Of a DNA stretch of 64,000 nt, positions 56,027 to 63,905 are shown piece by piece. This stretch comes from Paenibacillus durus ATCC 35681. GTDB taxonomy: Bacteria; Bacillota; Bacilli; Paenibacillales; Paenibacillaceae. Position 1 is the first letter of the stretch; every line of letters begins with the position of its first letter. A program made the translations under genes and the position numbers. The DNA is taken from positions 558,001 through 622,000 of the forward strand of contig NZ_CP011114.1 of assembly GCF_000993825.1 (NCBI RefSeq). The letters run 5' to 3'. The notes beneath the pieces are model-generated. The model made no database searches and had not been told where the DNA came from. It saw only the letters and a list, made by a program, of their open reading frames with translations.

Positions 56027-56260
56027 GTCGCTCCCCATGCGGGAGCGTGGATTGAAATTCACTCTTCGGGATGTAGCCAGAGAGGAAGGATTGAGTCGCT
56101 CCCCGTGTGGGAGCGTGGATTGAAATCTTTAGGTGTTCCGGTGTTCCTGTGGCTACTTTGGGTCGCTCCCCGTGCGGGAGTGTGGATTGAAATCGCAAAG
56201 GTCACGATTTTCGCTGGCGAAGCCATCGGTCGCTCCCCGTGCGGGAGCGTGGATTGAAAT
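56027..56260 (+). CRISPR. Type I-C CRISPR array 6 (4 repeats of differing loop)
   Basis: Repeats at 56027 (CCCC-ATGC), 56095 (GTGT), 56162 (GTGC, GTGTGGATT) and 56229 (GTGC) follow one leader. A weak relic (TTTCACTCTCCGTACAGGAG) lies at 56333. Three spacers of 35-36 bp. Confidence 0.93.
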
Positions 56261-56520
56261 TCGACAGGTATGGCTGCAATGTGTAAAAAATCATGGTACG
56301 TATTCAACGTATCCAGATTAATTAGCGGAAAGGTTTCACTCTCCGTACAGGAGACAAAGTTTCCTCTCAGTTATAAAATATATCCTACCTTGGGGCTTAA
56401 GTCTTTCACAGAGACAAGAGAGATCTGAAAACTTAATATGTAAAGCACCGAGAGCTTCGCTTTTACAGCAGAGTTTTGTGCTTTTTTAGCCTACTAAAGG
56501 AGACCTTACTCTTTTAGTCT

Positions 56521-56689
56521 GGTGCGAACCCCAAGCTCCCATAAAAATCCCGGGAGATTCGCACCTCTTGCGGGACAAGGGTTTTCGCGTTATTTTATAT
56601 TAGGATCCCCATTTTAAACGGTCATTTTTAAGAGGTTCGCACTAAAGCGTTTGCAATCTCTTGTGTAGCAAGTGATCGTAGCGAGTGCG
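56521..56689 (+). promoter_or_regulatory. CRISPR leader 7
   Basis: A 169-bp leader close to leaders 2 and 3. A gene-free 260 bp separates it from array 6. Confidence 0.85.
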
Positions 56690-57734
56690 GTCGCTCCCTA
56701 TACGGGAGCGTGGATTGAAATCATCTATCTCACCGCCTGTATTCTGAATGATGGAGTCGCTCCCTATACGGGAGCGTGGATTGAAATCGCGAGATACCGC
56801 TCGCTCCCACCGTTTTCCAGAAGTCGCTCCCTATACGGGAGCGTGGATTGAAATGAAGCATCCATGTGGATTACTTGGGCGACGTAGACAGTCGCTCCCT
56901 ATACGGGAGCGTGGATTGAAATTGTCTGTAGCGCGTTGTCCACGGCGATAGATCCGGTCGCTCCCTATACGGGAGCGTGGATTGAAATTGAGCATATAAA
57001 TGGACTCTGCCGGGAGTAGACATGTCGCTCCCTATACGGGAGCGTGGATTGAAATAATTAAGGAGCAAATACATATGAAAACTAAAACAGTCGCTCCCTA
57101 TACGGGAGCGTGGATTGAAATCGCGATCCATGTTACTTGCACGCCACCATACACACCGTCGCTCCCTATACGGGAGCGTGGATTGAAATCGGAACAACCC
57201 CATCTGGCGGTATGATTCCGCAGGGTCGCTCCCTATACGGGAGCGTGGATTGAAATCCCTCGGCACAGTAATTTTTTATTGTTCCAGGTGTCGTCGCTCC
57301 CTATACGGGAGCGTGGATTGAAATTGGAAAACCATGACATAATTATTGTCCTCCTTTGTGTCGCTCCCCATGCGGGAGCGTGGATTGAAATGATAAGGAA
57401 ACAAGTGACACGTTCACGAAAGCCATGCGTCGCTCCCCATGCGGGAGCGTGGATTGAAATCGCCGCCTCACTGTTACGTGCGGCGAGTGCTTCCTGGTCG
57501 CTCCCCATGCGGGAGCGTGGATTGAAATTCCGGAGCCACATCGCCGATAATCCGCAGCTCCGGCGGTCGCTCCCCAAGCGGGAGCGTGGATTGAAATCAC
57601 TGCTCCCCCATGAGGCGCACCTGGTTGGCCCAACTGTCGCTCCCCATGCGGGAGCGTGGATTGAAATGGTTTCGTGGTAGTAAGTTTAGATGGTTATAAA
57701 AAGTCGCTTTCCGTGCGAGAACTCGGATTGAAAC
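56690..57734 (+). CRISPR. Type I-C CRISPR array 7 (16 repeats, two stem types), next to cas genes
   Basis: Ten leader-proximal repeats have stem GCTCCC-TATAC-GGGAGC (56690-57324); five distal ones CCCC-ATGC (57360 onwards, one AAGC at 57566); the last (57703) is degenerate. Fifteen spacers of 33-38 bp. It is the array nearest cas3. Confidence 0.97.
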
Positions 57735-58193: not shown

Positions 58194-60635
58194 ATGGAAT
58201 ATATTGCCCATATCCGCCAAAAGGATAAAAAAATTCAAACGGTGGAGGAACATCAGAAGGAAGTGCAAGTCGGCTGTGAGCAATATGGTGCAAAGATAGG
58301 TGTGACCCATTTGGCCGGATTGGCGGGAATGCTGCATGATATCGGAAAAAATACGAACGAGTTCAACACGTATCTTGTCAAAGCGGTCTACCACCCGGAA
58401 GCCGCTTCCCGAAAAGGCTCGGTCGATCATTCAACGGCGGGAGGAAAGCTGTTATATCAGCGCTATCACAAGGGCGAGGGAGTTTCGATGAACAAGCTGG
58501 CAGCGGAATGGATCGGGAACTGTATTATTTCCCACCATCAAGGGTTGCGGGATTTCCTTAGTCCACAATTGGACTCGCCTTATCTGAAACGGGTGGGGCA
58601 GAAGGAACTTGATGAGTATGACCGGGCTGTCGCCGCTTTTTTCGAACAAGTGCCAGCTGATAAGCTTGACCGCTATTTTGAGCAGGCGGTTGCGGAGCTA
58701 AAGCTTGCTTTAACCATCATCCAAGAGTATAAGTTGCCACGCATTACGCTTGCTTTACTCATCAAGTACATTTTTAGTTGCCTCATAGATGCCGATCGGA
58801 CGAATACCCGGGATTTTGAAGCGGATGAGCATACGGACTGGATCAAGGATCATCAATCTTTTTTTCTTGAAAGCTATAATCGCCTGTTGGCGAAGATTGC
58901 ATTGTTGAACGAGGCGAAGGATGCGGATCATCCAATTAATCGTTTAAGACGGGAAATGTCCCGGCAATGTGAAGAGTTTGCGCTGCTCTCATCGGGCATT
59001 TACACGCTCTCTATTCCGACAGGAGGGGGGAAGACGCTGGCCAGCTTACGTTATGCACTACGACATGCCCTTGAGACCGGTAAGGAACGGATTATTTATA
59101 TTGTGCCGTTTACGACGATCATCGAGCAGAATGCGAAAGAAATACGGGAAATCATTCAGAATGATGATATGGTTCTGGAGCATCATTCCAATGTTGTGGA
59201 TGAAATTGATCCTGGCAGCGATGATTACGATTTGGAAAAAGAGAAACTGAAGCTTGCCAGGGACCACTGGGATCGACCGATTATTTTTACTACCATGGTA
59301 CAGTTTCTGAATACCTTTTACGCCAAGGGGACCCGCAATGTGCGGAGATTGCATCAATTGTCGAATGCGGTGCTGATCTTTGATGAGGTCCAGGCCGTTC
59401 CTCACCGCTGCCTTTCGCTGTTTAATGCGGCCCTCAACTTTCTCCACACCTTTGGGAAATCCAGTATTGTGCTATGTACGGCGACGCAACCGGCGCTTGA
59501 TGATGTCAGACATAAGCTGCATTTGTCCGAGCAGTCGGAGATGATCAAGAATTTGAGTGATGTGGGACGGTATTTTAAAAGGGTGGAGTTGGTCGATTAT
59601 ACCGCCAAGTGCGGCGCTTCGGGATGGGGAGCGGAAACATTGGCTTCCTTTGTACGTGAGAGAATGAATGAGGTGAACAGCGTGCTGGTCATTCTCAATA
59701 CGAAGACCGCCGTACGGAAGCTGTTCGCCGAGCTGGATCAGGAGGAATGGGCCGAAGATAGAAAGGTACGCCTGTTCCATTTAAGTACGAATATGTGTGC
59801 AGCGCATCGGAAAGATGTACTGGCCGAGTTGATTCAAGTGCTTGACTCCAAAGTAAATGAACGGGTGATATGCGTCAGTACCCAGCTTATTGAGGCCGGG
59901 GTGAACATCAGCTTTGATTGCGTGATCCGCTCGCTCTCCGGACTGGATTCGATTACGCAGGCAGCGGGTAGATGCAACCGCCATGGGAAAGACCCTTTGC
60001 GTCAGGTGTACGTCATCCAATCTGCGGACGAGAACTTAAACCATTTGCAAGAAATCAAGATTGGAGCAGAAATGACTCTTAAGGTGCTGGACGACTTTCG
60101 GAAAAAGCCGGAACTCTACGAAAATGATCGGCTATCCCCGTCCGCGATGAAGGCTTATTTTAAATACTACTATCATCGTATTAAAGATGAGTTGGATTAT
60201 CCCGTTCCGAAGCTCGGGGGGAAGAAGCTGTTTAATCTGTTGAGTTCAAACAAAGCGTATTATGATGCTTACCGAAATCGCTATAGCGAAAAGCTTGGAC
60301 TTGGGAGCCTGCAAGCCTTGGCGACAGCGGAGCAATACTTCGAGGTTATTGACAACCCGGCAACTTCAGTTATTGTCCCGTACAATGCAGAGGCGAGAGA
60401 CTTGATTGCTAATCTGAACGGGGAACTGGATATTTGGGAGCTTGGCGATTTGCTGCGGAAGGCGCAACAGTATGTGGTCAATGTTTATAAGCATGATCTT
60501 GTTAAGCTCGATAAGAGCGGGGAACTGTTTCCACTATTGAATGGCAATGTTCTGGCGTTGCATGACACGGCTTACTCGGAGCGATTTGGCGTAGGAACAG
60601 AAGGGGACGGAGAGTGGGGGACATCTATTATATAG
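58194..60635 (+). CDS. cas3: CRISPR-associated helicase/nuclease Cas3 (type I-C)
   Basis: An 813-residue HD-helicase fusion. The HD domain has MLHDIGK (His48-Asp49) and later ISHH. The helicase has IPTGGGKT (Walker A, residues 274-281), FDEVQ (DEVQ at 397-400), and C-terminal QAAGRCNRHG near residue 590. It nicks and degrades DNA after Cascade binding. AAGGAGG lies five bases before the ATG. It is separated from cas5c by 600 bp, unusually long for this operon. Confidence 0.95.
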   Translation: MEYIAHIRQKDKKIQTVEEHQKEVQVGCEQYGAKIGVTHLAGLAGMLHDIGKNTNEFNTYLVKAVYHPEAASRKGSVDHSTAGGKLLYQRYHKGEGVSMNKLAAEWIGNCIISHHQGLRDFLSPQLDSPYLKRVGQKELDEYDRAVAAFFEQVPADKLDRYFEQAVAELKLALTIIQEYKLPRITLALLIKYIFSCLIDADRTNTRDFEADEHTDWIKDHQSFFLESYNRLLAKIALLNEAKDADHPINRLRREMSRQCEEFALLSSGIYTLSIPTGGGKTLASLRYALRHALETGKERIIYIVPFTTIIEQNAKEIREIIQNDDMVLEHHSNVVDEIDPGSDDYDLEKEKLKLARDHWDRPIIFTTMVQFLNTFYAKGTRNVRRLHQLSNAVLIFDEVQAVPHRCLSLFNAALNFLHTFGKSSIVLCTATQPALDDVRHKLHLSEQSEMIKNLSDVGRYFKRVELVDYTAKCGASGWGAETLASFVRERMNEVNSVLVILNTKTAVRKLFAELDQEEWAEDRKVRLFHLSTNMCAAHRKDVLAELIQVLDSKVNERVICVSTQLIEAGVNISFDCVIRSLSGLDSITQAAGRCNRHGKDPLRQVYVIQSADENLNHLQEIKIGAEMTLKVLDDFRKKPELYENDRLSPSAMKAYFKYYYHRIKDELDYPVPKLGGKKLFNLLSSNKAYYDAYRNRYSEKLGLGSLQALATAEQYFEVIDNPATSVIVPYNAEARDLIANLNGELDIWELGDLLRKAQQYVVNVYKHDLVKLDKSGELFPLLNGNVLALHDTAYSERFGVGTEGDGEWGTSII

Positions 60636-60659
60636 GGAAAAACCCGCATTAAAGCGGGC
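60636..60659 (-). terminator. Minus-strand terminator of the crRNA-like RNA
   Basis: On the minus strand CCCGC and GCGGG pair around TTTAAT and are followed by TTTTT. On the plus strand no T-run follows, so the polarity supports a minus-strand transcript. Confidence 0.8.
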
Positions 60660-60719
60660 TTCTCTTGATTGTCTTAGTGACATTATATAATTTTCAATCC
60701 ACGCCCTTGAGAGCGACGA
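60638..60719 (-). ncRNA. Candidate CreR/CreA-like crRNA-type regulatory RNA
   Basis: On the minus strand TTGCGT (60753-60748) and GATAAA (60731-60726), spaced by 16 bp, place a start near 60719. The RNA then contains a degenerate repeat (60717-60691) with intact tail GTGGATTGAAA and a shortened hairpin CGCTC-UCAA-GGGCG, a pseudo-spacer starting at 60690, and a terminator. No second repeat is present. Spacer positions 1-17 (TTATATAATGTCACTAA) match 60864-60848 except position 6, with a TTC PAM beside the target. The layout matches crRNA-like regulators of type I systems. Confidence 0.72.
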
Positions 60720-60847
60720 GTTGAGTTTATCACACGATGACACATAAACGCAATCATACTAAGAATGAAAAATAATGGAATTCCCAAATAAAGGGGTTGC
60801 CAAAATTATAGACAGCCTTTATCCTATATTTAGGGGAACTCATATAT

Positions 60848-60867
60848 TTAGTGACATTCTATAAGAA
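60848..60867 (-). promoter_or_regulatory. Predicted Cascade target of the crRNA-like RNA (with PAM)
   Basis: Read on minus, TTC (60867-60865) is followed by TTATAGAATGTCACTAA (60864-60848), 16 of 17 identical to the pseudo-spacer start. A TATATT at 60843-60848 abuts it. Homology stops exactly at the PAM and after position 17. Confidence 0.7.
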
Positions 60868-60969: not shown

Positions 60970-61095
60970 ATGAGAAAAACAGTATGCAAGGCAATGTTTA
61001 AGCTCAATTGCACAAAGTGCGATGAGAGCAAAGACCTCAAAGTGAAGATTAGCCACCATCTCAAACAGACTTGTACAATCCAAGTTAAAAATTGA
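60970..61095 (+). CDS. 41-residue basic Cys-containing peptide between cas3 and cas5c
   Basis: AAAGGAGA lies 9 bases before the ATG, the best ribosome site in this gap. The peptide (MRKTVCKAMFKLNCTKCDES start) has four cysteines, is Lys-rich and unlike known Cas proteins. It lies 103 bp downstream of the predicted Cascade target. It could be the toxin partner of a CreTA-like module or an unrelated small gene; no rare-codon run is evident. Confidence 0.5.
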   Translation: MRKTVCKAMFKLNCTKCDESKDLKVKISHHLKQTCTIQVKN

Positions 61096-61112: not shown

Positions 61113-61151
61113 AGCGCGGCTGTCCTTTTAAATTAAAGATAGTGCAGCCGC
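61113..61151 (+). promoter_or_regulatory. Stem-loop in the cas5c upstream region
   Basis: GCGGCTG and CAGCCGC pair around an AT-rich inner CTTTTAAATTAAAG hairpin, 86 bp before cas5c. There is no T-run, so it is a structured leader or mRNA stabiliser rather than a plain terminator. Confidence 0.4.
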
Positions 61152-61236
61152 CTCTCCAAATCCGGCACGCCAACACTCTGTTCTTGCTTTTTAATAAATA
61201 CACAACAATTTAAATTTACAAAAAGGCGGTGAATAC

Positions 61237-61959
61237 ATGAGAAACCAGATCGAGTTCGAGGTTTACGGAAAATACGGATTGTTTACGGACCCGCTGACCA
61301 AAATCGGCGGGGAGAAGTTTAGCTATCAAATACCGACCTATCAAGCGTTGAAGGGGATAGTGGAATCCATATATTGGAAACCCACGCTTATTTGGATTAT
61401 CGACGAGGTACGGGTCATGGAACCAATACAGACGGAATCGAAAGGCATTCGTCCTATTGAGTACGGGGGAGGTAATACGCTTTCTTATTATACGTATCTC
61501 AAAGAACCGCGATATCAAGTCAGGGCGCACTTTGAGTTTAATCCTCACCGTGAAGATTTGATTCAGGACCGCAACGAACACAAGCATCATAACATTGCGA
61601 AGCGGGCGGTACAGGCGGGAGGCCGGCGGGATATTTTCCTGGGCGCGCGGGAATGTCAGGGCTATGTGGAACCTTGCGAATATGGTAAGGGAGTCGGATT
61701 TTATGATGAAATTGCAGAGATTGACTTCGGCATCATGGTGCATGGTATTAACTACCCTGATGAAACGGGGCGACAAGAGCGGGAAACCCGGTTATGGCGG
61801 GCAAAGATGGAGCATGGCATTATCCGGTACATCCGGCCTGAAGAGTGTACGCTGCTCCGTAAGACCGGAGAGGGACACATCAAATCGTTCGGCCTAGCAG
61901 ATATCCAGTCTGTGGAGGAACTGTATGCCGATTATTTCCAAGGGGAGGAGAGGGGATGA
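61237..61959 (+). CDS. cas5c: Cas5c (Cas5d) crRNA-processing Cascade subunit
   Basis: A 240-residue RAMP protein. Tyr46, Lys116 and His117 fall at the same positions as the catalytic residues reported for Bacillus halodurans Cas5d, which cuts the repeat in place of Cas6. The start [20 protein letters not shown] is typical. AAGGCGGTG precedes the ATG. It overlaps cas8c by four bases. Confidence 0.95.
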
Positions 61960-63905
61960 CCTGGCTCGCCGATTTATACAAGACATACGAGAATAACGCG
62001 CATTTGACCGGGCAGTTTGAGAGAAAGAAAAACGGCCGGGAGTACGCGCTCATCCCTGTCTCGCACACCACACAAAGTTCACATATCGAGGTGCGGCTGG
62101 ATATGGAGGGCAATCTGCTTCAGGCCAGGGTTGTGGAAAAAGAGGAAGCAAGCACAATTATTCCTTGTACGGAGGCATCCGCAAGTCGAACCAGTGCGCC
62201 GGTGCCGCACCCGCTGTTCGATAAGCTGGTCTATGTAGCTGGCGACTATACCCGTTATTACGGGGAAGTCAAGGGAACACCGCATGCGGACTATATGAAG
62301 CAATTGCTTGCCTGGTGCGAATCTCCAGCGGCACATTCCAAGGTGCAGAGCGTGTATACCTATTTAAGTAGAGGTACCTTGATTGCCGATTTAGTTCAAC
62401 GGGAGGTGCTATGGCTTGATGAGAAGGGGCAATTGGCGCCGAAATGGACACCGGCTATGGAGCAGAGATATGGAGAGAAAAAAGCAATTTTCAAGGTCAT
62501 CGCCTCCGATCAAAGCGCCGCCTTCATCCGGTTTGCCGTTCATGTCCCCGGTGATCCGGAAGATCGGTTGTGGCGAGACCGGTCGGTGCAGGAAGCCTTT
62601 ATCCGCTATAACGAGATGGAACTGGCTGAGCAGGAGCTTTGCTACGTAACTGGGGAATATTTGCCGTATGCGGACAAGCATACTTCACGTATCCGCAATT
62701 CCGGTGACAAAACGAAGCTGATCTCAGCCAACGATTCGCTAGGCTTTACCTATCGCGGACGGTTCCGCAGTGGAAGGGAAGCGGCGGCGGTCAGCTACGA
62801 AGTCTCTCAAAAAGGGCATAATGCCCTGAAATGGCTGATTGACCGCCAGGGCGTCACTATTGATGGTAAAGTGTTTCTGGTGTGGGGAATCGATAACCCG
62901 GATCTTCCCCCTCCATGGGAAGATGGGCTGGACTTGTACGGCGAAGAGGAGGATGAAGATACAGCGGGAGACGCCGCGCATCGTGAATTCGCCGGACAGT
63001 TTCGGCGTGCTATTCACGGCTATCGTTATAATACCGACGACTACAAATCCGAGGTTGTCATCATGGTGCTGGATGCGGCGACGCCGGGACGATTGTCGAT
63101 TGTATATTACCGAAATTTGAACAAGGAGCTATTTTTTAATCGTCTAAATTATTGGCATGCAACGTGCCGATGGCTGCACCGTTACCGTAAAAACGAACAG
63201 AAGGAGATACTTTCGTTCACCGGCGCACCGGCAACGCGGGATATTGCCTTCGCCGCTTACGGCCCGCAGGCGAGCGATAAAGTTGTTAAAGTGCTGCTTG
63301 AACGGATGCTGCCATGTATAGTGGACAAGCGTCCTGTCCCGCAGGATATTGTGCGCAGCGCGGTGAACCGTGCCTCCAATCCGGTTGGCATGGAGCCTTG
63401 GGAATGGGAGAAGACGCTCAGCATTGCCTGCGCGCTAGTGAAGAAAACATATGAGAAGGAGGGTTTTACCGTGAGCCTTGATGTAGAGAATGAGGACCGC
63501 AGCTACTTATTTGGCCGAATGCTGGCAATCGCCGATGTGCTGGAGCGGCGCGCGCTCGGTAAGGAAGAGAAGCGGGCCACGAACGCGGTGAGATACATGA
63601 ACGTCTTTGCGCAGCATCCGGGACGGACCTGGGAGATTATTCAGTCGAATTTACAGCCTTACCAGGCCAAAATGGGCACGAAGGACGGCATCATCAATTA
63701 CTGTAATAAAATGCTGGATGAAGTGGGCTCTCGGCTGAAACTGGAAGATTACAATGATAATCGGCTCAATGGACGGTATTTGCTCGGATTTTACAGCCAG
63801 CGTAATGAATTGTACAAGAGCAGGGAGCAGAGGGAAGCCGAGGCTGGACAGACTGCCCGGACCGACGAGAGCGCCAATAACGATGTACAAGGAGAGAATG
63901 AATAA
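61956..63905 (+). CDS. cas8c: Cas8c (Csd1) large Cascade subunit
   Basis: A 649-residue Csd1 protein ([20 protein letters not shown] start, [30 protein letters not shown]). It recognises the PAM and supports Cas3 recruitment. An internal ribosome site may give the small subunit in type I-C systems; a GAGAAGGAGGGTTTTACC then GTG at 63471 is a candidate for the C-terminal Cas11c-like product. It overlaps cas5c by four bases and cas7c by one. Confidence 0.94.

Follow-up and report, generated by a model that had tools for sequence, protein, structure and literature searches.

The primary paper on CreR reportedly appeared in Cell Host Microbe in 2023. Elements of this name are given for type I-B, I-E and V-A systems in the accessible part of PMC13131331 (2026), and the accessible text of PMC12737573 (2025), which presents CreR as widespread in type I and V-A systems and as not coupled to a toxin gene, never mentions type I-C. 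For CreA of type I-B, the excerpts of PMC8501985 state that mutating positions 6 and 12 is harmless while the other positions from 1 to 11 are needed, that the PAM is TTC, and that in the one-repeat creA of H. hispanica the second repeat is thought to have been replaced by a terminator. Our searches of the open-licence PubMed Central literature gave no account of a CreR or CreA in type I-C. A first-pass annotation of the cas locus of Paenibacillus durus ATCC 35681 had claimed that CreR/CreA logic is used by a type I-C system, and comparative evidence, namely recurrence, the PAM and covariation of guide and target, supports this claim.

The window, by which we mean the whole stretch of 64,000 nucleotides that was analysed, contains the features collected in Table 1. 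Beyond it follow cas7, cas4, cas1c, cas2 and then another canonical array (L271), and the operon as a whole is a complete type I-C set (Cas5c, Cas8c, Cas7/Csd2, Cas3, Cas4, Cas1c and Cas2). About 400 bases between the two arrays of the window (56290-56690) are leader-like and resemble the leader ahead of the first array. When the DNA of the cas3-cas5c gap was compared with 100 genomes of the genus, only G018 matched besides the genome itself, over the last 125 of the 641 query bases, which adjoin cas5c. An inverted repeat, GCGGCTG...CAGCCGC, sits before cas5c at 61116-61152, in this sole portion of the gap that is common to G018 and P. durus, and locus L005 has one too. An Rfam search gave two matches, both far below the gathering scores.

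Table 1. Features of the P. durus type I-C locus, in positions of the window.
Feature	Position	Strand	Basis
Canonical CRISPR array, 4 repeats	56027..56260	+	sequence
Second canonical CRISPR array, last repeat degenerate	56690..57734	+	sequence
cas3	58194..60635	+	
Terminator hairpin and T-run, 3' end of predicted guide RNA	60637..60664	-	fold, sequence
Pseudo-spacer; guide segment is the first 17 nt (60690-60674)	60665..60690	-	sequence and match
Pseudo-repeat: single degenerate type I-C repeat, 3' handle intact	60691..60717	-	sequence and 5-bp hairpin
Weak promoter-like site TTGCCA-17-TATCCT, candidate, upstream of target	60797..60825	+	promoter scan, 9/12 matches
Target: PAM TTC (60867-60865) and 17-nt protospacer (60864-60848)	60848..60867	-	sequence, match scoring
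41-codon ORF with Shine-Dalgarno-like AAGGAG, between target and cas5c	60970..61095	+	
cas5c	61237..61959	+	
cas8c	61956..63905	+	

The order described by the annotation for the minus strand of the gap, a degenerate repeat with an intact handle followed by a pseudo-spacer and a terminator, is present in the sequence. The pseudo-repeat reads GTCGCTCTCAAGGGCGTGGATTGAAAA on this strand, contains the handle GTGGATTGAAA at 60702-60692 and folds as a 5-bp hairpin (CGCUC-UCAA-GGGCG), and the terminator hairpin has a folding energy of -27.3 kcal/mol (z -3.6). A -35/-10 pair had been assigned to the minus-strand RNA as well, and here the promoter scan disagrees, giving none at that place; one -10-like hexamer (5/6) lies 56 nt 5' of the handle, where 36% of random stretches of the same length contain such hexamers. 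The T-run had been described as exclusive to the minus strand, on which TTTTT is indeed present, but the plus-strand tail CTTCTCTTGA is likewise T-rich, and the plus-strand terminator ending in this tail was the only one listed by the terminator scan. The scan probably missed the minus-strand terminator by extending the stem through the A-T pairs there.

Positions 1-17 of the pseudo-spacer are identical to the target at 16 of 17 positions, with a sole mismatch at position 6 (T vs G) and TTC in front, exactly as annotated, and the similarity does end at the PAM on one side, where the repeat has AAA, and past position 17 on the other, yet the spacer is about 26 nt long. This match exceeds chance, since the pair scores 15, and of the 1,945 ordinary spacers in the arrays of such loci only one reaches 15 and nine reach 10. 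With positions 6 and 12 left open, the pattern of PAM and target occurs once without mismatch in the genome of 5.58 Mb; allowing 2 mismatches adds two more places, which is chance level (a control pattern gives 3). Over the target the plus strand reads TATAAG at 60860-60865. No recognisable -35 accompanies this TATAAG, and the promoter scan there is at chance level. Sites like the weak promoter-like one upstream of the target number 4 in the scanned stretch against 2.3 (sd 1.5) in shuffles, not above chance.

The survey of relatives was based on cas5c. It was found in 27 of 100 genomes of the genus (loci L004-L030) and in 123 of 394 genomes of the family, of which 121 loci were used (120 and P. 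durus), G134 and G135 being left out because their cas5c is truncated or split. A named set consisted of the best 80 of at least 584 Bacillota loci, and 10 of 28 records of plasmid-borne I-C loci were scanned. The detector requires a handle like GTGGATTGAAA and misses other handles. A handle site was regarded as an array member, and removed, when a second handle-like site lay 55-85 nt from it. Sites were also dropped when fewer than 26 nt followed the handle or an N stood among the first 26, L163 at -3266 being one of those dropped. The family and named sets overlap, and distinct elements were counted by the 20-mer of the spacer, by which 114 solitary sites were reduced to 84. The 56 pairs described next were scored uniformly (+1/-1), with no favour to position 6 or 12.

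A TTC-flanked match scoring at least 10/17 is present for 56 of the 84 distinct solitary repeats near cas5c, as against 9 of 1,945 ordinary array spacers. The mismatches of these 56 pairs at positions 1 to 17 are 0, 0, 0, 0, 0, 47, 0, 1, 2, 1, 0, 38, 1, 3, 1, 12 and 33, and the pattern was unchanged when spacers within three differences were collapsed, which left 29 pairs. Of the 56 sites whose best match with any PAM scores at least 11, 52 have TTC as the PAM. Spacers swapped onto the loci of dissimilar spacers scored 5.6 on average against 13.0 for native pairs, and none of 700 swaps reached the native score. At positions 18-28, 436 of 616 cells are mismatched (0.708), as in swapped tails (0.711), that is, at random. 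These sequence comparisons indicate that guide and target change together across about 16 positions, each sixth base being free, as is predicted for R-loop pairing by type I Cascade. Position 6 is mismatched in 84% and position 12 in 68% of pairs; neutral drift expects about 75%, so there is no sign of selection for mismatch. The search of relatives that the annotation had proposed thus found differing sequences in which the match persists from position 1 behind TTC, with drift at 6 and 12. Relatives without conservation of the match, which the annotation had named as evidence against its reading, are exceptions (L166, L258, L252 and L101).

In the genus set the solitary repeat with an exact handle is present in 5 of 27 loci. 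In four of these the best match in the locus, other than the spacer itself, is strong and TTC-flanked with a mismatch at 6 or at 6 and 12, and in the fifth, L005, it is weak, with mismatches at 2, 6, 12 and 15. The latter is the same locus as L166 of the family set, that of the closest relative (G018, with a cas5c 98% identical), in which the repeat is kept. In L258, L252 and L101 a repeat is close upstream of cas5c with no good TTC match, and for 28 of the 84 distinct solitary sites altogether no TTC match reaches a score of 10. By the strict filter, a solitary repeat whose TTC-flanked match scores at least 9/17 was found in 46 of the 121 loci of the family and in 36 of the 80 of the named set; two more family pairs (L170 and L173) were recognised by hand, and a scan with a more forgiving score adds further pairs in the named loci. 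Among the named carriers are species of Paenibacillus, Bacillus, Brevibacillus, Cohnella, Fictibacillus, Pontibacillus and Oceanobacillus, together with Enterococcus alcedinis and a Lacticaseibacillus plasmid, which have other layouts. The E. alcedinis arrangement (L117) differs from those of all other loci: its solitary repeat is on the plus strand and the strong TTC match lies about 900 nt downstream on the minus strand (-3893 and -2993 from cas5c).

Carriage in the family follows the width of the cas3-cas5c gap, the element being present in 44 of 52 loci whose gap is 200 nt or more and in 2 of 69 narrower ones, where two of the 44 are artefacts of measurement (the gap of L224 is unmeasurable, and in L260 cas3 is interrupted and the element is upstream of it). 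Seven of the eight unpaired wide-gap loci were inspected by hand; L173 and L170 have good pairs, L163 and L161 partial ones, L258 a repeat that lacks a TTC match, and L222 and L216 no element, the eighth locus being L166. When up to 3 substitutions in the handle were allowed for the loci that had not been scored as paired, 117 gave candidates, none scoring above 10 (reversed control, at most 8); this search kept the array filter and hence missed L170 and L173. On plasmids, L262 of Lacticaseibacillus paracasei has a clear pair with the first 13 positions identical, and cas3 is downstream there. L266 of P. amylolyticus has the repeat and no TTC match among the two best listed. In the other eight of the ten plasmid loci (Monoglobus, Lysinibacillus, Zymomonas, N. 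vulgaris, Rhizobium, Streptomyces, Thermus and B. laterosporus) neither of the two best matches listed for each site is TTC-flanked with a score of 10. On a Cas5c tree of the 80 named loci and P. durus the element is scattered, requiring 28 changes against a mean of 27.4 for shuffled labels, where the labels were the strict pairs and three recognised by hand, so that absences are overcounted (L091 and L093 do have pairs). Turnover of the element, as far as this tree indicates, is evidently fast, with frequent loss or gain, because its scatter is no less than that of shuffled labels.

A TATAAT-like hexamer (at least 5/6) occupies protospacer positions 2-7 in 34 of 44 plus-strand targets, 22 of them perfect, against a background of 1.3% per position, and most guides would therefore be expected to cover a -10 box ahead of cas5c. 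Twelve targets, that of P. durus included, are on the minus strand, and four start 16-18 nt before the cas5c start, which suggests that Cascade would act there as a roadblock. Of the elements, 54 of 56 are on the minus strand, 31 of 56 have a repeat stem of 4-5 bp, and 42 of 56 have terminator-like hairpins, which in 28 of these 42 start 14-18 nt past the handle, so the guide is often no longer than the matched segment. In L143 and L144 (G217 and G218, with a narrow gap) and in L260 (G041) the element precedes cas3 on the plus strand, about 3.9 kb before cas5c, and its TTC target, with a TATAAG/TATAAT box, lies 43 nt upstream of its own handle; such a guide may repress its own promoter too. 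A DUF3800 protein is encoded between element and cas3 in L143, and a similar ORF is there in L260. Upstream of cas5c in L137, L120 and L085 each pseudo-spacer has two TTC-flanked sites, which may allow double binding. An ordinary array spacer of L202 (G280), AGCAGCCGGATGCCGAGCGT, may be self-targeting, its own locus containing a TTC-flanked match to it that scores 15.

We conclude from the comparison that the element is probably a CreR-like guide by which type I-C Cascade would repress its own operon without cutting. The single-repeat mini-CRISPR would yield a crRNA-like guide RNA, which would be processed by Cas5c, the crRNA processing enzyme of type I-C, and loaded into Cascade. The guide would then direct the cell's own type I-C Cascade to the TTC-flanked site upstream of cas5c, where its binding would block transcription of the unit leading into cas5c-cas8c-cas7-cas4-cas1-cas2. 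Pairing that ends at 16-17 would be too short for Cas3 to act, and repression would be relieved when crRNAs or anti-CRISPRs draw Cascade away. In most relatives the seed would lie over the -10-like box, pointing to promoter occlusion; the P. durus site, which belongs to the opposite strand, lies over TATAAG or directly after the weak predicted promoter, and a roadblock is equally possible.

Two other explanations of the paired sequences can be rejected. They might be two operator copies for a DNA-binding protein, one of which happens to stand beside a repeat remnant, and the P. durus copies taken alone, near-identical 17-mers around TAGTGACATT, would agree with this. Elsewhere, though, the paired sequences are unrelated from locus to locus and yet pairing begins directly after the handle and behind TTC, with mismatches at 6 and 12; a protein site predicts neither the handle-phased start, nor TTC, nor these mismatches, and we give this explanation hardly any credence. 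The same can be said of a functionless, decayed array unit whose ordinary spacer matches its own locus. The repeat is single and degenerate, as such a unit would be, but the frequency of matches in solitary sites and in array spacers (56/84 distinct sites vs 9/1,945), the fixed orientation (54/56 minus) and the usual presence of an own terminator (42/56) make it extremely improbable. Plain duplication of spacer or target was also considered and ruled out, the two being unlike outside positions 1-17 and positions 18-28 being random across the set.

It is harder to set aside a CreTA/CrePA-like guard, in which the guide would mainly silence the ORF between target and cas5c (41 codons in P. durus), and the product or RNA of this ORF would damage or alert the cell once Cascade is lost or inhibited. 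Among the 19 extended loci, P. durus included, 16 have an ORF led by a Shine-Dalgarno (SD) pattern between target and cas5c, although this pattern is permissive, the counts are without a chance control and the longer extended intervals give more chance matches. Some of these ORFs resemble defence effectors: L120 (Paenibacillus montaniterrae) has a TIR-like protein behind the target (PADLOC E 5e-8, the Pfam match being below cut-off) and L184 (G257) a DUF4062 protein between target and cas5c, both of them candidate CRISPR-silenced effectors. There is also a precedent in the Acinetobacter I-F CreTA, which according to the excerpts of PMC10097628 lies in the cas3-csy1 gap with its target upstream of an SD-led mini-ORF. 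Against a guard as the main function, 35 compact loci (target at most 160 nt from cas5c) share the element, with another SD-led start before cas5c in 2 of 35 and a terminator in none; as 33 of 35 lack both, cas5c would be the controlled gene there. In P. durus itself no terminator was found between the ORF and cas5c, so that cas5c would be repressed too, and the ORF matches nothing in Pfam, gave no homologue in the search and shows, by eye, no stretch of rare codons. We consider the guard explanation unlikely for these reasons. For P. durus the repressed unit may be the whole cas5c-cas2 operon, as for CreR, or chiefly the 41-codon ORF, as in CreTA/CrePA.

The ORFs between target and cas5c differ in kind and are not one family. 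Small ORFs of the HTH_Tnp_1 kind (transposase OrfA-type) are behind the target in several lineages (L248, L075, L089 and L072), and orphan ORFs in P. durus, L166 and L199, where a homologue search with the ORFs of L166 and L199 returned only each itself. Of the listed leader ORFs 18 were searched against Pfam, and nine had no match at the limits used. These leader genes may be guards or, just as compatibly with their sequence, passengers that inserted at a silent site. A wider version of the CreR-like reading, which we put forward only tentatively, is that the type I-C systems of Bacilli have a guide class of their own, of about 16 nt, ended by a terminator and with its seed on the -10 box ahead of the Cascade genes, and that the extended form, as in P. 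durus, would also silence leader genes that vary from locus to locus (TIR-like, DUF4062, small DNA-binding and orphan ORFs). If this is true, a phage anti-CRISPR would derepress new Cascade and, at the same time, a second line of defence.

If the CreR-like reading itself is true, RNA-guided autorepression of cas genes extends to type I-C, in a minimal guide format, and these I-C systems would be able to detect that free Cascade has been lost, a point that matters for anti-CRISPR biology and for the use of native I-C systems in editing or silencing. The evolutionary signature, in which the flipped-out positions 6 and 12 are the only ones to drift, allows such elements to be recognised in sequence without other data, and the dozens of natural pairs of guide and target suggest how short a pairing is enough to bind DNA without destroying it.

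Compared with known systems, the element is like CreR in being a mini-CRISPR in the cas locus with a PAM and partial complementarity upstream of cas genes (accessible parts of PMC13131331, PMC12737573 and PMC12948488), and in the predicted repression by the cell's own effector. The target of CreR overlaps the cas promoter; in the I-C set 34 of 44 plus-strand targets have the -10-like hexamer, and the P. durus target has only TATAAG. CreR is not coupled to a toxin gene; of the 35 compact loci 33 have no other SD-led ORF, and P. durus has its orphan ORF of 41 codons. It differs from the CreR elements of I-B, I-E and V-A in those excerpts in that it is type I-C, has one repeat and a terminator and a guide often of about 16 nt, and in that its target is at the cas3/cas5c boundary with leader ORFs in some loci. 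With CreA of the I-B CreTA, as given in the excerpts of PMC8501985, it shares a degenerate repeat, the TTC PAM and pairing at 1-5 and 7-11 with 6 and 12 free, whereas the I-C match runs to 16-17 and compact loci have cas5c downstream. No RNA toxin like the CreT of that source was recognised at the I-C element; at the creT-like position of P. durus an SD-led ORF is present, but it has 41 codons and no homologue. The Acinetobacter I-F CreTA, in the available text of PMC10097628, is likewise between cas3 and the Cascade genes, pairs over 17 nt and is divergent from the repressed unit, but it has two repeats and a conserved 33-bp ORF as toxin gene, and the I-C ORFs are not conserved. Racr, the phage-encoded RNA anti-CRISPRs, are solitary repeat mimics as well; they are viral and inhibitory by the excerpted account (PMC10651486), whereas the I-C element is in the cas locus of the host and keeps matching its target.
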